Origin: Terramyces sp. JEL0728
Taxonomy: Eukaryota; Chytridiomycota; Chytridiomycetes; Rhizophydiales; Terramycetaceae
Length of the DNA: 13,078 nucleotides
Direction: 5' to 3'
NCBI GenBank assembly: GCA_027603945.1
Contig: JADIIU010000217.1
Span: 1 to 13,078, forward strand
Shown here: positions 147 through 13,078 of the stretch, in pieces
Numbering within the stretch: the stretch's first letter is position 1
Layout of the letters: each line of letters starts with the position of its first letter
Position numbers and translations under genes: made by a program
Notes under the pieces: generated by a model
Seen by the model: only the letters and a program-made list of their open reading frames with translations
What the model was told of the DNA's origin: nothing
Databases searched by the model: none

Positions 147-1823
147 CTAAAACTTTATTCTGTTCTTGGCAGACTCATCCAACTCTCCATTCCACTCCCT
201 TACCAAATCCGACAGCTCTCCATAGTTGGCTATCCTTTTCTTCACTCGATGCTGTAACACACTTTCCGCCAATCTCTTTCGAACGCTTGCATTACCGCTG
301 AATATCTGTGCGACTGTGGTTTTGAGAGCAGAATTTACATCGATGGCCAAAGAACATCCTGGGTGGTCGAATAGTGTGCCGTGGAACTCTATGCTTTCCT
401 TGACAGAAATATAAAAAGTACAGTCTCGAAGTGCGCCTTTCTCTCTTTCAGTAGAATCTATGGGAATATTTACGCTCGAGTATACACTCATTAGCCCATA
501 AACAAACAACACTTTATCTTCCTCTAAAAATAAAGGTGCTTTCGGTATTTTGGATTGGAAATCCAGAAGCTTCGACTCTGTGACATCAGACCCCCAACGT
601 TTACGTTGATCCAAAACTATGATACTGCCAAGGCCATCAGCGCGTTCCAGGATAAAGAAAATATCTACTGCTGCACCATCGTCACCGTTCATCACAACTT
701 GTAGTGTCTCGCTTTGAAACCAATCAACCGTAATATAACTATTGTTTTTTCGAGAAATTGTTCGTGGTAGGTCGGGTCCATATTTCTGAACCGAATTAAA
801 CACTTTTGCTTTTTTGAGGTATACCTTCTTTTGGAAAATCTTTGAATTTGGAAAAACCGTCCCACGCAGCAAAAACTGCAAAGGGACTTTTACTCTATCA
901 TCATTTCTGCTTTCCAATACAAGAAAAGAATTGATTCGAATACAGTAGAAATTGGCTCCAAAAGCCTCCCAAGAGAGCCATGCAGGCACATGGCTATGTG
1001 GAATTTCAACATCAAGCACCAAATCATTCAACGAATCCAGCAGAGCCTTTTCGGAAACATTTAAACTATTGACTTTAGCGGGTTTTCTCTTCAACGCTTG
1101 GGCTACAAGATGGAAGGGTACAATCACTCGGCCAGTATCTTTAAGCAGACAAAGCCCATTTGCAACCATTTGATTCCAGGTAATATCTCTTGCAGACGGT
1201 AAAGTCGAGTTCTCAAAAGGGCGTTCTTGCTCATTTCCAATCTCGGTGTTGGTAAAGGATAATGCCAACAACTTCAAGATATCCGAGAGAGACAGATCAG
1301 GGTTTTGTAACTTCCAAAGTACAGCGTTTCGGATATCCCTTAATTCGTTTTCGACCAGAGAAGAAAAGTCCATTTCCGACACCCTTTTTGCAAATGCAGT
1401 TAGCAGTCTTGGAACTCCACCTAAAAGAAAGACATTCTGAGAGAATGCATCGCTGACTACAAATCCTGGGTGTATCTTTGAAATATAAGGACCTATCGCC
1501 TTCATGGATTCCATGTGTGTAAGAAATTGAATTGGTGTTCTGGTCGTGTTTGGATGGGAGGTTCGGGCGATACGACTCTTATTCAAGTCAGTTCCAGCTA
1601 GCATACAAAAGAATGAAAGCTTGGAACTTTCATTGCGTTTGGAATTATTGCATAAATCGTCCAACAGCAAATTCAATTCTTCTTGCTCGAGTTTCTGATA
1701 TTCATCGACTCCAACAAATAAAAGTATGTTTTCGTTAGTTTTCTGGCACCAATACTGTTCAATAACCGCCAACACTAAACCCAGTGTGAGTAGTTTCCTG
1801 TTCTTTGGCGATTTTTCACGCAT
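147..1823 (-). CDS. Crinkler/RHS-like NTPase-nuclease effector, N-terminally truncated
   Basis: A long uninterrupted frame ends in TAG at 147-149. Numbering from a GTG at 1868 (not a likely eukaryotic start), it shows a Walker B strand ending VDEYQ (residues 49-58), a LAGT sensor-like strand (about 90-93), GGVPR (150-154), and then a restriction-endonuclease-like domain. That domain has a WExF-like helix (E301), D402 and a QRK motif (421-423), the D...(E/Q)xK pattern. This NTPase plus PD-(D/E)xK order is the core of Crinkler (CRN) effectors and trypanosome RHS proteins. The Walker A P-loop and the N-terminal secretion region are absent. The first in-frame ATG is at 1823, yet Crinkler-like sequence continues upstream to about 1890, and the frame stays open to an in-frame TAA at 1914-1916 with no ATG. 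I see no mini-intron acceptor there. It is therefore probably a 5'-truncated copy, perhaps a pseudogene. It has no introns, unlike the genes further in. Confidence 0.75.
   Translation of the reverse strand: MREKSPKNRKLLTLGLVLAVIEQYWCQKTNENILLFVGVDEYQKLEQEELNLLLDDLCNNSKRNESSKLSFFCMLAGTDLNKSRIARTSHPNTTRTPIQFLTHMESMKAIGPYISKIHPGFVVSDAFSQNVFLLGGVPRLLTAFAKRVSEMDFSSLVENELRDIRNAVLWKLQNPDLSLSDILKLLALSFTNTEIGNEQERPFENSTLPSARDITWNQMVANGLCLLKDTGRVIVPFHLVAQALKRKPAKVNSLNVSEKALLDSLNDLVLDVEIPHSHVPAWLSWEAFGANFYCIRINSFLVLESRNDDRVKVPLQFLLRGTVFPNSKIFQKKVYLKKAKVFNSVQKYGPDLPRTISRKNNSYITVDWFQSETLQVVMNGDDGAAVDIFFILERADGLGSIIVLDQRKRWGSDVTESKLLDFQSKIPKAPLFLEEDKVLFVYGLMSVYSSVNIPIDSTEREKGALRDCTFYISVKESIEFHGTLFDHPGCSLAIDVNSALKTTVAQIFSGNASVRKRLAESVLQHRVKKRIANYGELSDLVREWNGELDESAKNRIKF
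154..159 (-). terminator. AATAAA hexamer just before the Crinkler stop codon
   Basis: A minus-strand AATAAA lies in the last codons, four bases before the TAG stop. It is a possible polyadenylation signal, and similar stop-proximal hexamers occur at three other genes here. The motif is AT-rich and could occur by chance. Confidence 0.35.
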
Positions 1824-1902
1824 CCATTGGTTAAAGTCATAATGCGCTTTGAAGAACAAATAAAGCACTCTCCATGCAAAGGAGCATTGAAAGAGTGTTG
1901 AA

Positions 1903-2808
1903 ATGCAAACAGGTTATGATTACAATCATCCAACCTATCTCAAAGTAGCAATGCCAGAAGAAGTAGATCCAAACTTTTTCAATAGCCATATTCACAACGC
2001 GATTCAAGCCGACATGACCTGCATGAACAATATTAGTTGGAGTGGAGCAGGAAAATCAAATATTTGGGATAATATAGAACTAGAAGGAAATGCGCAAATA
2101 CATGCTCAACAAGTGTCAGTCAGTATTGCTCTGAACCATTTTGTCGCAAAAGACAGTGTTCCAAATTTGGATTCAATCTTTCAGTTGGACGAGCCAAGTA
2201 CAATAATCCAAGCCCTTATGAATCAATCTTTCCGTCCAGCGATTGAATTTAAAAATGCCAGAAACATTTCTGGAGAATTTATGGGGACTGTTAGTTCGCG
2301 CTACTATAGACAATGGAAATCTAATGGTACTATTCCAGAATATTATTCTTCTCACAATCTATTTTACAATGGAAGCTATATATTTCAAGATGGGGGATTT
2401 GATGGTTGGGTAGGACTTGGTTATTTCTCGGATTTCAGTAATTACAATTTCAGCGGGATTAGTAAATTTGAATGGAAAAACAATACTCAAGACTTTGGTG
2501 AAATGGTTTTTGCAAGCTATAAAGTTAGCTTTGTTGCTGAAAGTGTTTCAGTAATTGGTCAGTTCAACTCTACTTATTTGAGTTTCGACGGGAATACCAA
2601 AGGAAAAGTAGATTTTCATGGAATGGGAGGATTGTTAAATAGTACAGTCAGCATCAGGATATACAATCAACCCTACCAATTCTTGTTCTTTTCAAAGGAC
2701 ATGCTATTCGCCATTATTCCAACAATGTGTTTGATTGGGTTTGTCGTTCACAGAGCAATCAAGAACAAGGAAAAGTACTTTACGATCCAATCAACTGCAA
2801 ATAAATAG
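1903..2808 (+). CDS. Unrecognised single-pass membrane glycoprotein
   Basis: This is a continuous 301-codon frame from ATG 1903 to TAG, with an in-frame TGA at 1888-1890 that blocks upstream extension. I do not recognise the family. The body is rich in Asn, Ser, Tyr and Phe and has nine N-glycosylation sequons (NIS, NQS, NIS, NGT, NGS, NFS, NNT, NST, NST). One hydrophobic segment (about residues 267-283) is followed by a short basic tail, the layout of a type I membrane or cell-surface protein. No signal peptide is present at the N-terminus, which begins in polar sequence. Either it lies in an upstream exon I cannot find, or the 5' end was lost at the junction with the Crinkler-like gene 35-80 bases away. 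It has no mini-introns. It converges on the M36 gene across a gap of 188 bases. Confidence 0.65.
   Translation: MQTGYDYNHPTYLKVAMPEEVDPNFFNSHIHNAIQADMTCMNNISWSGAGKSNIWDNIELEGNAQIHAQQVSVSIALNHFVAKDSVPNLDSIFQLDEPSTIIQALMNQSFRPAIEFKNARNISGEFMGTVSSRYYRQWKSNGTIPEYYSSHNLFYNGSYIFQDGGFDGWVGLGYFSDFSNYNFSGISKFEWKNNTQDFGEMVFASYKVSFVAESVSVIGQFNSTYLSFDGNTKGKVDFHGMGGLLNSTVSIRIYNQPYQFLFFSKDMLFAIIPTMCLIGFVVHRAIKNKEKYFTIQSTANK
2800..2805 (+). terminator. AATAAA hexamer abutting the stop codon of the glycoprotein gene
   Basis: AATAAA forms the last two sense codons, directly followed by the TAG stop. It is a candidate stop-overlapping polyadenylation signal. A second, more conventionally placed hexamer lies at 2853-2858. 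Confidence 0.3.
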
Positions 2809-2995: not shown

Positions 2996-3001
2996 TTTAT
3001 T
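2996..3001 (-). terminator. AATAAA overlapping the M36 stop codon
   Basis: On the minus strand the TAA stop (2999-2997) is itself part of an AATAAA hexamer. If used as a polyadenylation signal, the 3' untranslated region would be very short. Confidence 0.35.
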
Positions 3002-4970
3002 GACACTCTTCAGGCAAAGTGAAATCCTCAGCACCACCAGAGCGAGCTTTGACACCCAGCCCTCTCTTGGCAAACCCTTTATAGATCTCGCAATAATTGC
3101 TGCCGCCAGTATTGATTTTATCAGCCAAGATAATTGCATCTCTGGCATCAACAAAAGTAGGACTGCAAGGTTGCAATTTTAGACCATCAACAACAAGTCG
3201 GAGCATGAGTTTGTTGCCGGGAATAGGATATTCCTTGTCGGTTGAGGCTGGCACGTCAAACCATCCTGGTTCATAGCCGTGCTTTTCAACTAAATTCCAG
3301 AATACTTCGTATAAAGTAGTTGCCCAGACAGAACCTAATATTAAAGTCAAGCACCTTTTGGATGGACTCCCCAGTAGGCTGGTTTACGGATATACGAATA
3401 GGTTTGTGGGTTGGTTTTCTTGTCGGTCGAATACTTGAACGGACGAATGCCAACGCCATTGGAATATTCACCCATTCCAAAATCATCATTGCGAGTAGTA
3501 TTTGGAGTAGTTCGTAGAATAGTAGCAAACACATCTCCCCATCCTTCGCCCATACTATATGATTAGTTATTATTTACCCTATAATTAAACAAAACATTAC
3601 CTCCAGCTTCTCCCCATCCTAAACAGTTTGAATTGGCCGGTCCACCAGTCAATCTTGTCGAAATACCGTGCGCATACTCATGGATGACGATGCCACTTTC
3701 TAGATCACCATCCCTTCTTGGCTGTGTTTGAGTCCATACATACATTCTCATTCTTGGTCTTTGACCGTCTGGCGGAGTTGCAAAGTTTGCTAAATTAATA
3801 TAAAATACCATTATTCATTCCAGAACCATCTTGCGCGTTAGCAACGACAGCATCATTTCCTTTGCCACCTCTTCCCAAGTTGTTGTCTTGAAAGTTTCCA
3901 GCTTCTTCAGTAAATCCATAGACGTAAAACAAGTCATGAATAATGTTGTTCCAGTAGAATAGATTGACAATAGTAGCATCGGTGTAGGTATCAGGATCTT
4001 CTTCCAAATCAATAGGGTAGTCAAAGACTTGTCCTTTGGACGCTTTAGGGCGGTGATTGTTTTTCCAGCTTTCGCCGCCATCAGGGTTTTCTTGAGCATA
4101 GACATTGTTACCCAAAGTATAGTCAGAAACCGTATCTTTTCTGCCTTTTCTTTGAGTGTTCCAGCCTAAAGGACTGGCAACTTTGTGTTCAGGATCAACA
4201 ACTACTTGTCTTGGGCCGGAATTGGGGTCGTTGGTTCCCAGAGGATAAACATTAAATGTAGCATGAGACACCCAATCTACCAAACTGACCACATTGCCTG
4301 TTTCAGCGTCAATATGGGCATTAAACCAGTTGCTCTCAATATCAAATACTAGATCCCATACAAGCTGCAAACTTCCATCATTTTGAATCATCTGAAATTA
4401 AAATTACGCACCTTCAAGACGGCAGGAACTTCAGGATACTCGTCTACTTTTAAAGTGACGGGAGAAGCGAATGAATTTTGATTAATGCTTTTGTATGGCA
4501 AACCAATGAAATTAACAAGGGTCATCAAGGCATCCTTTTCATTCAACTTTGGCTCCAACACAAATTGATCTTGCTGGAAAGACAGCAACGACATTGGTTT
4601 CAAGAAGAACGAATGAGACATACTGATTACATTTCCATATTTATCCAAGTGACACGCACCAACACCATTTGCAACTTCCAATCCTTCAACGATCTGTTGA
4701 AGATAAATGTGGTAGACTTGGTTGTGCTTGGTCTGGTAGGCACTAGATATTTTCAAATCAACTGGCAATTTTTGCTTGAATGATCTACATTAAAAATAAA
4801 TACTCTACGGCAGCAGTTTGTGCATCGACCAGGGAAATTTCTTTGGTTTTTGATAAAATAGAGAACGGATATTCGATGGTGTGGGTTTGCACATTAGGGC
4901 CAAAGCTTTCCAAGTTACGGGTAAACGGGACTGCCGTAACTGAAAGCACAAAAAATATTGATTTCAACAT
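2997..4970 (-). CDS. Secreted M36 fungalysin metallopeptidase (seven exons including a 1-nt exon)
   Basis: Exons on the minus strand are 4970-4804, 4784-4412, 4391-3809, 3789-3601, 3578, 3554-3355 and 3334-2997, totalling 1851 nt (616 aa), the usual length for fungalysins. The N-terminus is hydrophobic (about residues 4-16), a short signal peptide. A propeptide with FTP and PepSY-like regions follows to about 222. The mature enzyme should begin near A224 (ATFNVYP, resembling known mature fungalysin starts). HEYAH at 411-415 gives zinc ligands H411 and H415 and catalytic E412. GEGWGD supplies the third ligand E441, 30 residues from the first His, as in Aspergillus fumigatus Mep (H429/E459). 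Family role: extracellular zinc endopeptidase acting on keratin, collagen or elastin. M36 genes are expanded in amphibian-parasitic chytrids. The apparent frame breaks are six 19-23 nt introns, so I call the gene intact. A subtelomeric place beside a Crinkler-like gene suits an accessory host-interaction gene. Confidence 0.93.
3335..3354 (-). other. Mini-intron 6 of M36 gene, 20 nt
   Basis: Donor GTGCTT, TTAAT, acceptor TAG; phase 1. Removal gives [13 protein letters not shown], the conserved stretch after the third zinc ligand. Retention gives an internal TGA. Confidence 0.93.
3555..3577 (-). other. Mini-intron 5 of M36 gene, 23 nt
   Basis: Donor GTAAAT, CTAAT, acceptor TAG; phase 2. It is the longest intron found here. 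Retention gives an immediate TAA at its donor. Confidence 0.8.
3578..3578 (-). other. Apparent single-nucleotide exon of the M36 gene
   Basis: One G on the minus strand lies between the acceptor of mini-intron 4 and the donor of mini-intron 5. Kept, it is the middle base of the G438 codon and holds frame between HEYAH and the E441 ligand. A single 46-nt GT-AG intron across the region would shift the frame; a 45-nt intron would need a TA-AG or GT-TA boundary. Confidence 0.7.
3579..3600 (-). other. Mini-intron 4 of M36 gene, 22 nt
   Basis: Donor GTAATG, TTAAT, acceptor TAG; phase 1. It is followed after one base by mini-intron 5. Both must be removed, and the single base kept, to give EAGGMGEGWGD in frame. 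Confidence 0.8.
3790..3808 (-). other. Mini-intron 3 of M36 gene, 19 nt
   Basis: Donor GTATTT, TTAAT, acceptor TAG; phase 1. Removal recreates the conserved [11 protein letters not shown] segment before the active site. Retention gives an internal TAA. Confidence 0.93.
4392..4411 (-). other. Mini-intron 2 of M36 gene, 20 nt
   Basis: Donor GTGCGT, TTAAT, acceptor CAG; phase 0. Removal joins PAVLK directly to MIQNDGSL, restoring the conserved propeptide strand. Retention runs into TGA just after the acceptor. Confidence 0.9.
4785..4803 (-). other. Mini-intron 1 of M36 gene, 19 nt
   Basis: Donor GTATTT, TTAAT, acceptor TAG; phase 2. Removal joins residue E56 to the FTP-like region. If retained, the TAG acceptor is an in-frame stop. 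Confidence 0.85.
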
Positions 4971-5310
4971 TTCAGTTAAACTTTTTGGGGCTTGATCACC
5001 CTGACCACGCGGTTCGACTCACAATCACTTGATAACAATCATTGTAATCATATACACAGATTCACCTATATACGTCAATCTAACCGCAACTGGCTTTAAC
5101 CACTTGGAAATTCAAATGGAATCGAGAGATAGGATCTACGTGATCTTTACGCAAGGAAGCTCTATCGTTTCTTTGCAGACCCGATGCAACAACCTTGGAA
5201 TATTCAAAGAAATCCAACCGCATAATAGCCAGCAAATTAGTTGGCTTGTTCGTTTATCGCTTGCGAAAACCTCTGTTCCCACTCTAAATCAAAAGCATAA
5301 ATCAATGTAT
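4971..5310. other. Intergenic region upstream of the M36 gene
   Basis: These 340 bases separate the 3' end of the cyclic-nucleotide-binding gene from the M36 start, both on the minus strand. They should hold the M36 promoter. A plus-strand open stretch crosses the region but starts at TTG and shows no recognisable protein features. No RNA gene or repeat is visible. Confidence 0.5.
5067..5077 (-). promoter_or_regulatory. Candidate M36 promoter: TATATA next to TGACGT
   Basis: On the minus strand a TGACGT half-site (the core bound by CREB/ATF-type bZIP factors) runs straight into TATATA, about 97 bases upstream of the M36 ATG. Position and sequence fit a core promoter. Both motifs are short and could be chance. 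Confidence 0.25.
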
Positions 5311-7794
5311 TCAGATATTGTGCAAAATTTTTGTTTTAGTTGATTTCCACTCCTGCTGCGACAATACCTTTCTCTGCAATATTACAAGATCATACAGCTC
5401 GATACACGGCTCTTGTATTAATTTATACAACAATTCGCAGGGCACGACCGGCATGAGGTCAGTCAGTTTGATTGCTGCAAGAGTCACCATTCCGTCAGCT
5501 ATCACTCCCGTCTTTTGGAACGTTTTGGAATCATCAGGGTATAATCTTTCGAAAAAATCTACATAAACATTCTTTTGAATATCTTGGTGTGAAAATGTTC
5601 CTTCTTTTACCGTGGGTATATTCGGAAAGAAATCGCCAACGTTTAGGTCCTGTGTTTCCACTAGGATTTGTGTGTAATTTTCATGCTGCATTTCGCCAAA
5701 ACTAGTGGATGCAAGTATGCCTTGGTATCTCAAAAACGGTAATTTCCTTGTGACTTTGCACACTCCATCAAGCACCCAATACAATTCGTTAAACTGTCGT
5801 CCTTCTTCTAAAATAACTTGTCCCTTTGTAAACGAGTAGATGTGAAAGAAATTGTTGGATATCAGCGTTTTCAAAAACGGCTTGAAACTTTTTAGAGCAT
5901 ACATGCCAAGCGTATCCGATATTTGCCTTTGCGCTTCTTGGTCTTCCTTTTTAGTGATATACTCTATATACTCGGCTACATTAATATAAATTCACCTTTT
6001 GATATGTACAGCAATTTGCTCTTTGCTGTTGTCGCCGCAGTAAATATCCGTTTCACTGAATTTATCGAGAGGCACTGTTCACCAAAGATCGATCCAGAGT
6101 TCAGCACATCTATTCGATATTTATATCCGTCATTGATCCTTACTAATTCCACTTGGCCTGATAACACAAAATAAAAACACGTTGGCGCTTGTCCTTCAGA
6201 TAATATTATGGTATCCTTGTCGTAGTGCTCTATAGTGATTGCTTGGCAAAGAAAGAGTCTTTCAGCAAGAGGAAACTTTGAAAACCCTGGCATTCTTAAT
6301 CTTAGGAGCATTTCCAGGTTGGCGACGCTCGATTCACTTCTCTTACATTTAGGTTGCTTTAATAACTCCTCTACTTGTCCTACAAACGCCGTATCTGGCT
6401 CAATGAGGTTCAATTTCAGGATATACGACAGCGATCCGTTATCCCTGACTGGCATTGATGATATCTTGGCGTGGTTTCTTTTCGATATTGCTTTATACAC
6501 GTTTCTAACACACCGGACTAATTTGATACAATTATGGACTCGAAGCCAATTTAAAAACGTCGAGTCTTGCAAATGTGCCTTTTTTGGTGATTTGAATGTT
6601 GCTGGAGATTTACCTGGTTTACGAAATTTGGAGACTAATTTGGAGTGTTTTAGTAAAGCGTTGTGTATCTCTTCCTTTATAGTCTTTTTTGAATTTCTGC
6701 TATTTGGCAGAGTTGCAGTTTGAATTACACTTGAAGGTACTGCGTTTCTTTTGCTAACCGAATCTCTTGGATTGTCAGAGTACCTGGCAGCAACTAAATC
6801 TCTTTGGTTATCTGAATTTTTAGCAGTTACCAAATCTCTCTGGTTTGGCACTAGATTAACTTATGGTACCTCCCATCTTTAATGATTTTCTGTTTGTTTG
6901 AGGTGTAGGCTCGCCTGCTTCTGGGGGAAATCTCAATTTGGTTTGCATAACAAAGTCATCAACTGCCACATTCTCTAGATCTTTGTTATTTACTTTTGCT
7001 GCATCAGTGGTGGGTCGTCTACTATGTCGATTAGTTGTTGAATCTCGCGGAACAGGTGTATCATGCTCATCTTCAACTGCGTCTTGAAAAATGACTCCAA
7101 GGTGTCCTGTATTAAGTTCGCTGGTCTTTGTATCGACAGCACTTTCAGCTGTACTTTCCCGTGAAGGGTTTCTGTCTAAATTGGGTTTGGTATTTTCTTT
7201 ATTCGATGTTTCTACTTTTTCTTCAATGGAAAAGTTGTTTGACTTTATGCTTTTCCTACTCTTTCTTACTTTTACAAACTCTAAAGAGCTTCCTGTTTTT
7301 AAATTACAATATTCGTTTGAATGCACAGTTAGAGAAAGTGAATTATCCGTTTTTATGCCTGGTTTACTGGCAGTGTCCAGACGAGTCGTATCAGTGCAAC
7401 TTTCTGCTACTACGAAAAAGTTTGATTTTCCATTACCTCTTGCAGACACAATTTTACCCAAAGAAGGTAATTCAATTGCATTTGAATCTTTGTATAGTTT
7501 TGAATGAAAGTTTGGCCCAACAGACTTTCGCCTGGTTCTATTTTCTTTATTCTTTTCCAAATCCTTTTTTTTCACTTGGTCACTTTCCAAGATCAAATCT
7601 ATCATAGTGTCTTTGATTTTCCTTGGTTTGCCCAGTTCCGCGTTTTGGCATTTTACTGTGGGAATGCTGGCTACTTCTTTTTGAGGCAACTCTGGTAAAA
7701 GAACACAGGTTCCTTTGATATTAAATTCTCCCTCGTGTTTTGCAAATTCTTTAAAGGGGATGGTTGGAATTTTCTGTTCTTGGTGGTGCTTCAT
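5311..7794 (-). CDS. CNBD2-like protein with two cyclic-nucleotide-binding folds
   Basis: Exons on the minus strand are 7794-6870, 6850-5996 and 5975-5311, totalling 2445 nt (814 aa). An in-frame TAA directly precedes the ATG and fixes the start. Residues 1 to about 400 are charged and low in hydrophobics, probably disordered, with a 12-residue tandem repeat near 311-346. A basic RCVRNVYKAISKR-type helix precedes the first cNMP fold (about 490-600), as in CNBD2-family proteins. Its phosphate-binding cassette keeps FGE and an Arg (KRIFT, where PKA has PRAAT), so cAMP or cGMP binding is plausible. The second fold (about 618-760) starts well (FTKGQVILEEG, VLDGVCKV) but its cassette reads VGDFFPN without the Glu/Arg pair, so it is probably degenerate. 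There is no kinase, channel or GEF domain, so its output is unknown. It shares a divergent 410-base intergenic region with GlyRS. Confidence 0.85.
5976..5995 (-). other. Mini-intron 2 of the CNBD2-like gene, 20 nt
   Basis: Donor GTGAAT, TTAAT, acceptor TAG; phase 1. Removal joins YISK to AEYIEYI, the usual helix after the first cNMP fold. Retained, the TAG acceptor is an in-frame stop. Confidence 0.92.
6738..6845 (-). repeat. Three tandem 36-bp coding repeats (12 residues each)
   Basis: Within the CNBD2-like gene, just after mini-intron 1, three 36-base units encode NQRDLVTAKNSD, NQRDLVAARYSD and a diverged NPRDSVSKRNAV. The units differ at several codon positions, so this is an older in-frame expansion. 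Confidence 0.75.
6851..6869 (-). other. Mini-intron 1 of the CNBD2-like gene, 19 nt
   Basis: Donor GTACCA, TTAAT, acceptor TAG; phase 1. Removal joins the N-terminal open frame to the repeat-bearing frame. Support is weaker because the surrounding protein is not conserved, but boundaries and motif match the others. Confidence 0.8.
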
Positions 7795-8204
7795 TTAGAA
7801 AAGAATGACGACAGCATCATCGGAACATTGTCTATACCCAATATGCAAGATATTTAGGTAAATTTATCCCTGATGTTGGGTTTCAATTCCCAGCCTTTAG
7901 ATCTTGTTGACTCAACCACCACTAGCTTTGCTTGAATCTGGGAATCGGACAAGTATTTGAGCAGCAATTATTTAGCTCAAATGAGTCGAGGAAGGAATGA
8001 CAAGCCAAATATGATTGCTTGGATTAAACACCGTTAATCTACACCGACTGGCAACTTTCACCAATTAATCCAGTAATATCAAATCTCAACTCTTTAGGAA
8101 TCTACCAAATTTTCTTTTTGAGATTCAAAATCCTTTTTTAAAAAACCCTAGCCCTATAACCATTGCAACCCTTTTGTATTTACAATACCCAAATATTAAT
8201 ATTT
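7795..8204. other. Divergent intergenic region between the CNBD2-like and GlyRS genes
   Basis: These 410 bases lie between two head-to-head genes and must hold both promoters. The GlyRS side is rich in A/T tracts and ends in a CCCTA-rich stretch (8143-8161). No convincing ORF, tRNA or repeat was found. Confidence 0.6.
8143..8150 (+). promoter_or_regulatory. Telobox-like AAACCCTA upstream of GlyRS
   Basis: AAACCCTA, followed by the near-repeat GCCCTATAACC, lies about 55 bases before the first GlyRS ATG. Telomere-like boxes are bound by Tbf1-type factors in fungi and mark translation-gene promoters in plants. Its position fits, but this is one short motif. Confidence 0.25.
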
Positions 8205-10435
8205 ATGCGCACAATAATATCAACTCTGCCAAGTCGTGGGCTTCATCTCCATTTTGTTCGACGGATGACTCTTATTGCTCCAAAGGCTAAATTAAAAAAA
8301 ATTCTCACCAATCTTCCCATGCCAACTACAGACGAAATTGAAGCCAAAATCATCCAGCAAGCTGATGTAGTGAAAAGAGCAAAGCAAGCCAAGGTCTCCA
8401 AAGAAGAATTGGAGCCATTGGTACAAACATTGCTCTCGTTGAAAGCACAGCTTAAGGATGAGCAATCCAAAATCAAATCATTTGACAGAGCTGCATTGGA
8501 AGCTTTATTAACAAAGAGATTCTTTTACGCTCCGTCATTCCAAATCTACGGTGGTATTGCCGGTTTGTATGACTATGGACCTCCAGGATGTTCCCTTCAA
8601 ACTAATATCTTGAATTTATGGAGACAGCATTTCGTTCTTGAAGAAGACATGCTTGAAGTTGAATGCACCAACTTAACACCTGAAGCTGTATTCCAAGCGT
8701 CTGGGCATGTTGAAAAATTCGCTGATTACAAAGTCACTGATTATGTTACCGGCGATATTTACAGGGCTGATCATTTGGTAAAAGAAGTCTTGGGAAAAAG
8801 ATTAGAAGACGATAGAAATTTGAAACTTGGATTACAAAGTGATGCAAAGAAACCTAAAGGACAAAAACCTGCTGAACCATTAGCTGATGAAACTAAAGCC
8901 CACTACGAAATGGTTCTTGAAACTGTAAATATTCATTAATGTAGCTGGATAATTATCAAGGCGAATCGCTGGTCAAGCTTTTCAAAGAATTGGATATTCG
9001 TGCACCTACTGGAAACTCAGTTACGGAGCCAGTCTTGTTCAACTTGATGTTTGATACTCAGATCGGTCCTACCGGCCAATTCAAGGGATATTTGAGACCA
9101 GAAACTGCCCAAGGACACTTTTTGAACTTTAAAAAGCTATTGGAAACCAACAATGAGCAGATGCCTTTTGCTTCTGCTTCAATCGGTAAATCATTCCGCA
9201 ACGAAATCTCTCCAAGACAAGGTTTATTGCGTGTTAGGTATTTCCATTTTAAAATCAAGAGAATTTACAATGGCTGAAATTGAACATTATGTACACCCAG
9301 ACCGTAAACAACATGCTAGATTCGATGAAGTTGAAAACTTGGAATTGCCACTGTACTCTGCTGCAGCGCAATTAGCTGCTAAAGGACCGAAAATGACTAA
9401 AATTGGAGAAGCAGTCAAGAATGGAACTGTCAACAATCAAACACTTGGATACTTTATGGCGAGAATTTACTTGTTCTTGATTAGAATTGGTATTGATGCA
9501 GATAGAATCAGATTCCGTCAACACATGGCCAACGAATTGGCTCACTACTCTTCTGACTGTTGGGATGCCGATATCAAGAGCAGTTATGGCTGGATTGAAT
9601 GTGTTGGATGTGCCGATCGTTCTGCTTATGACTTGACTGCCCACACCAAAAAAACCAATGAAAAATTGATTGCGCGAGATACTCTTCCGGAACCAATTGT
9701 TACCACCAAATTGACATTGGAAATTCAAAAATCTAAATTTGGACCGGTATTCAAAAAGGATGCCAAGATTGTCCAAGAAGCGCTATTGGCTTTAGATGAA
9801 TCTCAAGTCAAAGAATTTGAGCAAAACTTGAAGGATGGAAAAGCTTCCATTGCTGCCGATGGAAAATCTTTTGAAATCACCAACGAAATGGTTTCCATTG
9901 GTATGAAGACTGAAACGATTAATGGTAATTTAACACTAAATTAGTATTGGAATATGTCCCAAATGTTATTGAACCTTCGTTCGGTATTGGTCGCATTATT
10001 TACTCTTTACTAGAACATGCTTACTATGTTCGTGAAGAAGACGAACAGCGTGGTGTGTTAAAGTTCAAGTCTGCTATTGCGCCAACCAAGGCACTTGTAA
10101 TTCCAATCTCAAACAACACTGATTTTGCTCCTCACATCAAATCTCTTGTTCAAAAGCTGCGGCACGCAAATATTTCAAACAAGGTGGACAATTCATCTTC
10201 TGCTATTGGCCGTCGTTATGCTCGTAACGATGAAGTCGGTACTCCTTACGCCATCACAATCGATTTCCAAACACTCAAGGACAACACTGTTACTTTGCGT
10301 GAAAGAGATTCCACCAAGCAATTCAGAGCTACAAAGGAGCAAGTTGTTGAAGCAATCAAAGACTTGGTTGAAGAAAAAGTTGAGTGGGATGCTTTGGTTA
10401 AAAGATATGGTGAATTTGTCGGACAAGATGCTTAA
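8205..10435 (+). CDS. GRS1: Glycyl-tRNA synthetase, dual mitochondrial/cytosolic start
   Basis: Exons 8205-8924, 8945-9237, 9260-9924 and 9945-10435 total 2169 nt (722 aa), close to other eukaryotic GlyRS. It charges tRNA-Gly with glycine, as a class II homodimer. Residues 1-20, before a second in-frame ATG at 8265, have several Arg and His and no acidic residue, like a mitochondrial presequence. Residues 43-88 form a WHEP tRNA-binding helix pair. The catalytic core starts near 93 ([13 protein letters not shown], YDYGPPG), with class II motif 2 FRNE at 324-327 and motif 3 EPSFGIGR at 569-576. The anticodon-binding domain covers about 600-720. The first ATG has TTT before it, a weak context that suits leaky scanning to the second. 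All three introns fall inside conserved blocks, which fixes their boundaries well. Neighbouring genes are functionally unrelated. Confidence 0.96.
8925..8944 (+). other. Mini-intron 1 of GlyRS, 20 nt
   Basis: Donor GTAAAT, TTAAT, acceptor TAG; phase 0. Removal joins VLET to LDNYQGE, matching the GlyRS family. Retention gives an internal TAA. Confidence 0.93.
9238..9259 (+). other. Mini-intron 2 of GlyRS, 22 nt
   Basis: Donor GTATTT, TTAAA, acceptor AAG; phase 2. It interrupts class II motif 2, and removal gives the invariant [12 protein letters not shown]. The acceptor is the only AAG here. Confidence 0.95.
9925..9944 (+). other. Mini-intron 3 of GlyRS, 20 nt
   Basis: Donor GTAATT, CTAAA, acceptor TAG; phase 1. 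Removal leads into [13 protein letters not shown] (motif 3). Retained, the TAG acceptor is an in-frame stop. Confidence 0.93.
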
Positions 10436-10439
10436 TAAA
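10434..10439 (+). terminator. AATAAA overlapping the GlyRS stop codon
   Basis: The GlyRS stop TAA (10433-10435) is followed without a gap so that its last two bases begin AATAAA. A second AATAAA lies at 10640-10645, about 205 bases downstream, at a more ordinary distance. Confidence 0.35.
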
Positions 10440-10970
10440 CTCGTTTTTGTTACCATAATGGATTGTAAGTTGCCTGTACTCTATTGTGAAAAACTGCTCT
10501 CTATTAGCACCTTAAATGGAAACTAAATTAACTCTCAATTGATTATCTATGGGCTACATTTTGGAATCACAACTCAACTACAAGAGCCCATTGCATCCCC
10601 AGATCCCATGAATTACAATCTTAACTGCTCTTTGTAACCAATAAAGATACTCAACGACAAAACACATTGTAGAAAAGTAGCAAGAACAGTGAAATTGATT
10701 TCAATTCCAACTCAAAGTCACCTGTTGGCTAAAGACGATTGCACCATGCTTTTAAATGAGAGATAACCTCATCGACACGTTCAATATTCCAATCGGGAAT
10801 ACTCGCTCGCCAGTTTGCAGAGCATACTGACCCTCGCACATGAACAATAACAAGAACTAAACAAAACAGCTGTAACATTAGCCAAATCCGAACCCAATAA
10901 TGAGCCGCAGGTTGCTGTGCTGTGGCGGAAAAAGTTGATTATAAAGGGATCGTGAAAGCTGGAAAATCCA
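10436..10970. other. Intergenic region between GlyRS and the sterol glucosyltransferase
   Basis: These 535 bases hold the GlyRS 3' end and the promoter of the next gene, on the same strand. Visible items are an AATAAA (10640-10645), CCAAT boxes at 10638-10642 and 10789-10793, and a small inverted repeat ATTCC/GGAAT around the second (10786-10800). No convincing ORF or RNA gene was seen. Confidence 0.5.
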
Positions 10971-13078
10971 ATGGGCAATACCTCAGTCGTTTCATCCAAT
11001 GATTCACAACTGTCAGAAGAATTACCGGAATACGACAATATTAATCAAATACAAGTAGAGGAAAAATCAAATATCGGTAGCGATCTTCCACCTCCTCTCC
11101 CACCACGTCGAAAGATGTCTCCATTTAAAATTTATGTCGGTATCAAGCTTATACACAAGCCAGGCAAACTCGCCGAATCAATCAGTTACTTTGAAAAAGA
11201 CTTGTTTAGCGATAGCCGTAACGTACACCTGTGCTGCATAATAGAATGGGAAAACTCGTTTACCAAATACGAAGGTAAAATTAGCTAATCGCAGTTGATT
11301 TGAACGACGACAAGCGCGGAAAGCATGTTAAAACTCTGATCTCAACTGTTGGAGGGTTTGAAAACAGCTACCACTTTATGGATGATTACATACAAAAGAA
11401 TCCAAAGAATAGACTAATGTTTATCGGAGAAACTACAAAATCACCCAAAGATGCGAGTGATTTTTGTATAAAGTGGAGTGAAAATCACACCCGTTGTTTA
11501 ATGTGGGAAGATTGTCGCTCATTCGTTGATGAATTTCTAGAGTCGATTGCGGACACGAATCCAACATGGAAGACCAAAGTCAAACTTACAAGTACCAGTG
11601 ATTCTGTTATACCTGACAATTCATACGGATTTTCATCGCCAATAGAGTACATTGATTGGAAATTTAAAAAGACACAGTTGTTACTGGAGAATACGAAAGG
11701 ATTTAATGCTCGATTGGAGAATGATCGGCTGGTTGTGGAATTTGCCAAAGCTGCCACCCTTGAAAGCAGTCAAACTTCTCCTACCAGCAGTATTAGAGAC
11801 GAAGAAGCCCTATCGCATCCAGCACCTTGTTTGAATATTGTCATTCAAATTGTTGGGTCTAGAGGCGATGTTCAGCCATTCGTTGCACTTGGTATAGAAT
11901 TGCAGAAATATGGCCACCGTGTTCGATTAGCAACCCATGAAACGTTTAGAAAGTTTGTAACTGAAAACGGGTTGGAGTTTTATCCATTGTCTGGCGATCC
12001 AGCATTATTGATGGCGTATATGGTGAAAAACCCAGGCTTGTTGCCGGGTTTAGATTCGATCAAAGATGGCGAAATCCAAAAAAAGAGAGATATGATTGCA
12101 GGAATCCTTGAATCTACATGGAAATCGTGCATCGAACCCGATGAAGAATCTGGTTTACCTTTTGAAGCACAAGCAATCATTGCAAATCCGCCTTCGTTTG
12201 GCCATATCCACTGTGCAGAAAAACTAATGATTCCGGTATTTTTGGTTAATATCAGCTACATATATTTTTTACCATGCCTTGGTCTCCAACTGCTGAATTT
12301 CCTCACCCTCTCGTAAAAGTTGATCATTCTGCTGGACAAATAGGAATGATCAATAAAATGTCCTATAGTGTTACAGAAACACTGACCTGGAGTGGATTAG
12401 GAGATTTAATTAACCATTTTCGCAAAAGGACGTTAGGTCTTCGAGGAATATCTGCTACTCAAGCACCAACCTTGTTGTCAGAACTAAAAGTGCCTCACAC
12501 TTACTGCTGGTCGCCAAATTTGATTCAAAAGCCGAAAGATTGGGGAAGTCATATTGATGTTTGTGGATTCTTTTTCCTTGATCTTGCTTCAAACTACGCA
12601 CCACCTGCCGATTTAGTTGCGTTTCTAAATGCTGGACCTCCACCTGTTTATATTGGGTTTGGAAGCATTGTAGTCGACGATCCGGACAAACTCACAAAGC
12701 TTATTTTCAGCGCAGTTGAAAAGGTGATTTATTCTAATGACAGGCTGGTGTTAGGGCGATTGTATCCAAAGGCTGGGGTGGTTTAGGAACCGATAATGTT
12801 CCCTCAAACATCTACATGATTGGGAACTGTCCTCACGATTGGCTATTTACCAAAGTATCGGCTGTCTGTCACCACGGGGGTGCTGGCACTACAGCTACAG
12901 GATTGCTGAAGGGCAAACCTACAATTGTGGTTCCATTCTTTGGGGACCAACCGTTTTGGGGTGCAATGATAGCAAGAATGAAAGTTGGACCGGAACCAAT
13001 CCACAACAAGAAACTAAATGCCGACAACCTTGCCGAAGCACTCAAATTTGCCACCAGCGAGGAGATTACAAAGAATGC
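10971..13078 (+). CDS. Sterol 3-beta-glucosyltransferase (ATG26/UGT51 type), 3' end beyond window
   Basis: Exons 10971-11274, 11295-12235, 12256-12723 and 12744-13078 give 682 residues, still open at the window edge. An in-frame TGA 18 bases upstream fixes the ATG. The GT-B glycosyltransferase begins near residue 280: GSRGDVQP (289-296) is the acceptor-side signature, [17 protein letters not shown] and TMPWSPT follow, and HHGGAGTT (614-621) with FFGDQPFW (636-643) is the UDP-glucose-binding region. This family glucosylates ergosterol-type sterols at membranes. Fungal ATG26 usually carries PH and GRAM domains before the transferase. I see neither here; residues about 52-190 form an unrecognised, well-structured-looking region, preceded by a disordered start with a proline-rich PPPLPPRRK (40-48), a possible class II SH3 ligand (PxxPxR). 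Only the C-terminal tail of the transferase should be missing. Confidence 0.92.
11275..11294 (+). other. Mini-intron 1 of the sterol glucosyltransferase gene, 20 nt
   Basis: Donor GTAAAA, CTAAT, acceptor CAG; phase 1. It joins the N-terminal exon to the main frame, and retention gives an internal TAA. The flanking protein is not recognised, so support rests on frame and motif. Confidence 0.85.
12236..12255 (+). other. Mini-intron 2 of the sterol glucosyltransferase gene, 20 nt
   Basis: Donor GTATTT, TTAAT, acceptor CAG; phase 0. Removal joins AEKLMIP to [12 protein letters not shown], a strongly conserved family block. Confidence 0.95.
12724..12743 (+). other. Mini-intron 3 of the sterol glucosyltransferase gene, 20 nt
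   Basis: Donor GTGATT, CTAAT, acceptor CAG; phase 0. Removal joins VEK to [15 protein letters not shown], restoring the conserved strand before the donor-binding motif. Confidence 0.95.

Follow-up and report, generated by a model that had tools for sequence, protein, structure and literature searches.

Introns of about 20 nucleotides are very probably the rule in the genome of a chytrid fungus, Terramyces sp. JEL0728

The stretch of DNA examined here, contig C217 in its entirety (13,078 bases, hereafter the window), belongs to the 15.0 Mb genome assembly (231 contigs) of Terramyces sp. JEL0728, a member of the Rhizophydiales, family Terramycetaceae, which we take to be free-living. Four of its genes are interrupted by introns of 19 to 23 nucleotides (nt), and the comparisons presented below make us highly confident that the U2-type spliceosomal introns of this species have shrunk, across the genome, to a narrow class of that size with its mode at 20 nt. 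A reading of the window made from its letters only (the sequence-only reading) had proposed precisely this, a fungal genome in which introns of ~20 nt are the rule. The proposal is borne out by a phylogeny of glycyl-tRNA synthetase (GlyRS) and the identity of an eIF3c protein, both of which indicate that the host is a chytrid fungus, and by what lies beyond the window: in a 200 kb sample of contig C1 and in motif pairs collected genome-wide, ~20 nt is the rule. Extrapolating from the 128 introns called in those 200 kb, the genome would contain roughly 9,600 introns in total.

The 14 GT...AG segments listed by the sequence-only reading are all found in the window, each present once and on the expected strand (19 nt in three cases, 20 nt in eight, 22 nt in two and 23 nt in one), and their excision, as had been claimed, opens four long frames: an M36 peptidase, a cyclic-nucleotide-domain protein, a GlyRS and an open-ended glycosyltransferase. 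For the cyclic-nucleotide protein and the glycosyltransferase (UGT), the residue positions of the introns were derived by hand from the segment coordinates. The genes and introns are as follows.

2997..4970, minus strand: predicted M36 metallopeptidase (fungalysin) gene, 616 amino acids (aa), six introns; Pfam PF02128, 520.8 bits, residues 225-601, profile positions 1-368 of 368
4785..4803, minus strand: M36 intron 1, 19 nt, GTATTTATTTTTAATGTAG; 13 of 17 junction residues identical to Boothiomyces, ungapped
4392..4411, minus strand: M36 intron 2, 20 nt, GTGCGTAATTTTAATTTCAG; 17 of 17 junction residues identical to Boothiomyces
3790..3808, minus strand: M36 intron 3, 19 nt, GTATTTTATATTAATTTAG; alignments to a solved fungalysin and to Boothiomyces
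3579..3600, minus strand: M36 intron 4, 22 nt, GTAATGTTTTGTTTAATTATAG; fungalysin and Boothiomyces alignments; found by the learned-length C1 run, missed by the held-out test
3578..3578, minus strand: M36 exon of a single G, flanked by introns 4 and 5; without it GG-M-GEGW is not obtained
3555..3577, minus strand: M36 intron 5, 23 nt, GTAAATAATAACTAATCATATAG; fungalysin and Boothiomyces alignments; missed by the gene finder
3335..3354, minus strand: M36 intron 6, 20 nt, GTGCTTGACTTTAATATTAG; alignments to a solved fungalysin and to Boothiomyces
5311..7794, minus strand: predicted cyclic-nucleotide-binding-domain protein, 814 aa, two introns; Pfam PF00027, 69.6 bits, two stretches
6851..6869, minus strand: intron of the cyclic-nucleotide protein, 19 nt, GTACCATAAGTTAATCTAG; frame and motif; found by the learned-length run, missed by the held-out test
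5976..5995, minus strand: intron of the cyclic-nucleotide protein, 20 nt, GTGAATTTATATTAATGTAG; near residue 594, in the PF00027 stretch 516-600; called by the gene finder, held-out test included
8205..10435, plus strand: predicted GlyRS, 722 aa, three introns; 72-73% identity to Globomyces pollinis-pini
8925..8944, plus strand: GlyRS intron 1, 20 nt, GTAAATATTCATTAATGTAG; ETLDNYQGE junction, ungapped in the alignment
9238..9259, plus strand: GlyRS intron 2, 22 nt, GTATTTCCATTTTAAAATCAAG; RVREFTM junction, invariant
9925..9944, plus strand: GlyRS intron 3, 20 nt, GTAATTTAACACTAAATTAG; ETINVxEY junction, ungapped
10971..13078, plus strand: predicted GT28/UGT-type glycosyltransferase, three introns, running off the contig; Pfam PF03033, PF06722 and PF00201
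11275..11294, plus strand: UGT intron, 20 nt, GTAAAATTAGCTAATCGCAG; frame and motif; called by the gene finder, held-out test included
12236..12255, plus strand: UGT intron, 20 nt, GTATTTTTGGTTAATATCAG; near residue 417, in the PF03033 stretch 284-431; called by the gene finder, held-out test included
12724..12743, plus strand: UGT intron, 20 nt, GTGATTTATTCTAATGACAG; near residue 573, in the PF00201 stretch 547-679; called in the held-out test

That conserved blocks of protein fix most of these boundaries is confirmed: 12 of the 14 introns lie where the protein aligns with a homologue or a family, namely all six of M36, all three of GlyRS, two of the three of the UGT and one of the two of the cyclic-nucleotide gene. 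For those at 6851-6869 and 11275-11294 the support comes from frame and motif. All six M36 introns are fixed because the spliced product aligns without a gap, across 616 residues and at 91% identity, with a deposited Boothiomyces macroporosus protein of the same length, and four of its six junctions also have no gap near them when the protein is aligned with a fungalysin-type enzyme of solved structure. At all three GlyRS junctions the protein continues as it does in Globomyces, Kappamyces, Batrachochytrium and Spizellomyces.

One feature to be added is in the M36 gene, where a single G at position 3578 separates the 22-nt and the 23-nt introns (window 3600 to 3555, minus strand). The EAGGMGEGWGD junction across this one-nucleotide exon reads as in the solved fungalysin, and 16 of 17 residues are identical to Boothiomyces. 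In an exhaustive test of window 3480-3700 we removed every single GT...AG segment of at least 10 nt and every pair of 10-60 nt; no single removal gives EAGGMGEGWGD and only the 22+23-nt pair does. Our gene finder never recovers this pair whole. A motif-score scan of the C1 sample and the window for further introns in tandem, separated by 0-8 nt of exon, found none, and it is uninformative, the known M36 pair having also been missed by it. Removal around the one-nucleotide exon would be sequential: the upstream 22-nt intron would leave first, which would bring an exon up against the donor of the 23-nt intron, and the latter would then be removed.

For a view of intron length beyond the window we have employed a two-strand gene finder written for the 200 kb of contig C1. 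With GT and AG as the only requirement and all lengths from 10 to 300 nt equally likely, 15 of 42 introns fall at 18-23 nt; the GT/AG termini are imposed by the model, so that control dinucleotide pairs serve as the test of the termini, and six of them in the same untrained run place only 0-4 of 35-40 introns there. When the splice signals are learned under a flat length prior, a seeded run on the C1 sample plus the window (supplied, from the 14 window introns, with the donor bases and the base at -3 but never with the length) puts 64 of 86 introns at 19-23 nt. The unseeded run on C1 alone puts 35 of 51 there; nine control pairs, put through the same training, have 0-4 of 27-40 in that range, and none has a 19-23 nt peak. 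With a learned length prior, 119 of the 128 introns in the C1 sample measure 19-23 nt (18, 62, 26, 11 and 2 introns at 19, 20, 21, 22 and 23 nt respectively). In the whole genome, the pattern GTAATT...CTAAC...TAG, permitted to span 15 to 48 nt, has 100 matches, 88 of them at 19-23 nt, and its reversed control has 34. Frame-blind counts of GT[AG]...TAG spacings agree, the top two of 110 spacings being 20 nt (178) and 19 nt (160), followed by one with 144; the reversed sequence proved not comparable as a background for these counts and the other spacings served instead. The model trained unseeded on C1 alone, when applied with its learned length distribution to the held-out window, finds 11 of the 14 introns and no others (6 of 14, plus one other of 38 nt, with the flat prior). 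Together with the control pairs, this result shows that the window introns are not a product of chance.

The short introns carry a coherent set of signals. Among the 119 in the C1 sample the donor has A at +3 in 111, A at +4 in 73, T at +5 in 65 (G in only 20) and T at +6 in 76, while on the 3' side T stands at -9 in 97 and A at -7 in 98. The consensus is a GTA(A)NT donor, with T preferred over G at +5, and a branch motif resembling (T/C)TAA(T/C). The branch A, assigned by a motif score of our own, lies at position 14-16 in 115 of 119, and 4-7 nt follow it in 118, in keeping with the expectation that both ends and the branch point must be recognized within about 20 nt. Their G+C content is 29%, and that of the 200 kb sample 39%. 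An in-frame stop is present in all 26 introns called at 21 nt, versus 55 of 93 of other lengths, and within called exons there are six strong stopless 21-nt candidates, versus 0-1 at 15, 18, 24, 27 and 30 nt. We do not claim a selection for in-frame stops in 21-nt introns, the 26/26 figure being at least partly a bias of the gene finder. The stopless candidates (C1:187372-187392 and five others) were read as coding, and the gene models may hide introns of this kind as seven extra residues.

As for the machinery, the genome has a U2 snRNA (140.2 bits) with the canonical branch-binding sequence GTGTAGTATCTG, and it encodes Slu7, Prp18, SF1 and the large subunit of U2AF, whose spliced gene yields three RRM stretches. 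Yeast relies on Slu7 and Prp18 chiefly where the branch lies a long way from the 3' splice site. That both are kept here, with just 4-7 nt from branch to AG, is therefore slightly puzzling, and more so because they are listed as not found in Stentor (PMC9505925). Segments as short and as exactly delimited as these, occurring in many genes, could also be imagined to be excised from the DNA, like the internal eliminated sequences of ciliates, instead of being spliced from RNA. We know of no DNA elimination in chytrids, and the GT...AG termini and a branch motif that matches the canonical U2, all in the sense of transcription, together with the presence of spliceosomal genes, make this idea extremely improbable.

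Genes outside the window behave in the same fashion. Six C1 genes with four introns each were hand-picked for evident conservation from 66 intron-bearing predictions of at least 150 residues, and for the best Pfam family of each the spliced and the intron-retained scores (in bits) are 521.4/288.6, 544.7/278.9, 208.4/30, 236.3/91, 158.2/25.8 and 104.9/68.4; 18 of their 24 introns lie within the listed Pfam stretches. Alignments with solved structures are ungapped at three junctions in the C1 mitochondrial methylcrotonoyl-CoA carboxylase beta chain (PDB 8j4z) and at three in the Vps1/dynamin-type protein (PDB 6di7); a C1 DAGAT query found no match in the PDB. There may also be traces of such introns in relatives. 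Six proteins labelled 'jgi', probably metagenomic, depart from the alignment as though translated into an intron: three GlyRS proteins (P0048, P0057, P0058) do so at the place of the window intron 9925-9944, and three eIF3c proteins (P0144, P0160, P0163) at glycine G628, where Terramyces has no intron. Four of the six end at the glycine plus five residues, P0163 ends after three and P0058 continues for fourteen. If the protein ends are taken as stop codons, the distance, as deduced from these protein sequences, from the GT in the glycine codon to the TAG stop would be 20 nt in those four. Many segments cause a frameshift or contain a stop, as would also be the case if errors of sequencing or assembly, or the decay of genes, were mimicking ~20-nt introns. 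Random errors would not all begin with GT, end with AG and have a branch motif at a constant distance, their excision would not give ungapped junctions in conserved genes, and the proteins of the JGI relatives would not be cut short at identical or comparable places; we consider this explanation very unlikely.

How much of this is already known? Our C1 eIF3c model, with introns of 21, 20, 20 and 20 nt, agrees at 797 of 797 residues with a protein that NCBI lists for Terramyces sp. JEL0728 (Boothiomyces eIF3c is of equal length and 91% identical), and therefore the deposited annotation already splices ~20-nt introns, at least in the eIF3c gene. It is thus possible, if on balance doubtful, that such introns are described in that annotation and perhaps also in a paper. 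Our literature search, which covered the main texts of open-licence publications, found no report of ~20-nt introns as a fungal rule, in agreement with the remark in the sequence-only reading that no such fungus was known, nor is such a rule reported in the passages available to us of PMC5364385, PMC8476143, PMC7466969, PMC3569864, PMC6733946, PMC11210171 and PMC12316389. A 20-bp intron of a giant virus, mentioned in a passage of PMC9894930, is a tRNA intron and unrelated. As far as this search goes, ultrashort spliceosomal introns as a kind are known, and the host and the scale reported here are undescribed. With respect to the host, the window GlyRS groups in the tree with Globomyces and three JGI sequences (support 95/89), beside Kappamyces, and the Batrachochytrium group is their sister. 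The GlyRS list by bit score is topped by two date-palm entries (P0001 and P0002, glycine--tRNA ligase) with 48% identity, perhaps by virtue of their near-double length.

Several observations speak against this reading or limit it. A pattern of fixed length, GTAAGT+12+TAG (21 nt), is not enriched in the genome (193 matches versus 224 in the control); it was dropped, having the wrong donor and a fixed length. Five of the 128 C1 calls (43, 70, 132, 278 and 285 nt) stay above 30 nt, and a model that permits lengths up to 300 nt fits C1 better, by 31.4 log units, than one with a limit of 30. The short introns might then be one class only, with a genuine longer class elsewhere in the genome that happens to be absent from the window; the 22 of 86 introns that the flat prior puts outside 19-23 nt, the likelihood and the five of nine long calls that stay in the final run all point that way. 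The remaining four of the nine can be replaced by short introns around skipped exons: calls of 200, 216 and 265 nt give way when only 30 nt or less is permitted, and what was called as a 177-nt intron of a protein-kinase-like gene makes better sense as three short ones (19, 20 and 21 nt, chosen by eye), which together restore the kinase stretch HRDLKPENLLLD...DFG. Even the 43-nt call is readable as 20 + 23 with an exon of zero length between. Moreover, in one and the same run the control pairs each yield 23-34 false introns of 24-300 nt, compared with 15 for GT-AG, and the frame-blind counts have no second peak up to 120 nt, so that a longer class seems to us rather improbable. The statement that no longer intron is needed holds for the window, as far as one would be needed there, and for the genome it is shown in part. 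The U2AF-large match (251.7 bits) is below the whole-protein cut-off of 310.3 and is broken by introns, and U6 (ACAGAGA) was not found by several genome searches, including Rfam and a pattern search; the assembly may lack the U6 gene, or the gene may have diverged or contain an interruption of its own. Finally, neither the GlyRS nor the M36 of the window has a near-100% Terramyces match among the 120 matches listed for each, so that both genes may be absent or broken in the deposited annotation.

The U6 candidates that were inspected were rejected. Two weak Rfam matches, on contigs C199 and C111, are in a duplicated block that looks coding, as do the three of 17 U6-like pattern matches that have two mismatches and were inspected. 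The C199 and C111 loci are near-identical by eye over the 400 bases compared, and also in their predicted proteins. Other motif matches recur at a fixed spacing, ~29 kb apart on C3 and 18,638 bases apart on C115; all these repeats stem from recent duplication or are copies of haplotypes within the assembly. In the window itself, telomere-like CCCTAA repeats mark the start of the contig. Near this end is an open frame of 588 codons (147-1913, minus strand) for which Pfam gives nothing at E 0.01 and only insignificant matches at E 1; a second one, of 305 codons (1891-2808, plus strand), has no Pfam match and, by eye, a hydrophobic stretch near its C-terminus.

Recognition of introns this small would presumably proceed by intron definition, with the whole intron taken as one compact unit. 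U1 would sit on the first 6 nt, to be followed there by U6, and about nt 11-16 would be bound by SF1 and subsequently by U2; U1 would probably take turns with SF1/U2 instead of binding next to it. U2AF could at most read the AG or the T-rich stretch before the branch, because the space 3' of the branch is too small for a polypyrimidine tract.

In the passages of the cited papers on which the following comparisons draw, introns of similar size are reported from nucleomorphs (18-21 nt), heterotrich ciliates (15-16 nt) and mikrocytids (16-17 nt) (PMC10245619). The more than 800 introns of chlorarachniophyte nucleomorphs form a comparably narrow class of 18-21 nt (PMC10245619), but in the reduced genome of the remnant nucleus of an endosymbiont, whereas the genome here is a fungal one of 15 Mb. 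The 15-nt introns of Stentor coeruleus, whose introns measure 15-16 nt, mostly have the branch A at position 10 with 5 nt after it, close to the 4-7 nt seen here, and the branch-binding motif of U2 is likewise conserved; the Stentor donor-to-branch distance, however, is ~4-5 nt shorter, there is no strong branch consensus as opposed to the clear one in Terramyces, and Slu7 and Prp18, present here, are listed as not found there (PMC9505925). Mikrocytid introns are also of a very narrow class, with 217 of 224 at 16 nt (PMC10245619), but these parasites have a reduced spliceosome and just those 224 introns, in contrast to the ~9,600 extrapolated here and the retention of Slu7, Prp18, SF1 and U2AF-large. 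Among relatives of the fungi, the introns of the microsporidian Encephalitozoon cuniculi are among the smallest, surpassed only by those of Paramecium and the nucleomorphs (PMC3629993), but they are few (37, PMC3629993) and the host is an intracellular parasite. Paramecium has ultrashort introns genome-wide too, although they are longer (~25 nt) and those of 3n length are enriched in in-frame stops (PMC5014332), which we do not claim here. Fungal introns, for their part, have species means of 63 to 469 bp according to a passage of PMC8476143. It seems to us an evenly balanced proposition that in Terramyces, Boothiomyces and the relatives known from JGI almost the entire complement of nearly ten thousand introns has turned to 19-23 nt with a fixed donor-branch-acceptor ruler, that the second-step factors not found in Stentor have been kept, that the use of long introns has perhaps been lost, and that two neighbouring introns can be spliced around an exon of a single nucleotide.

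There are practical consequences. Gene finders and RNA-seq aligners with a minimum intron length above ~20 nt will break genes, and the proteins of the JGI relatives do seem to stop inside such introns. A study of the Rhizophydiales obtained 207 genes with one gene-finder setting and 9,233 with another (passage of PMC13391722), a gap that short introns might explain. With U1, SF1, U2 and U6 sharing 14 nt, the recognition of introns at such close quarters is opened to direct test; the case also differs from that of Stentor in having Slu7 and Prp18. Terramyces sp. JEL0728, a cultured strain judging by its JEL number (abstract of PMC7537106), would then be a fungus in which splicing at the lower limit of length is routine.

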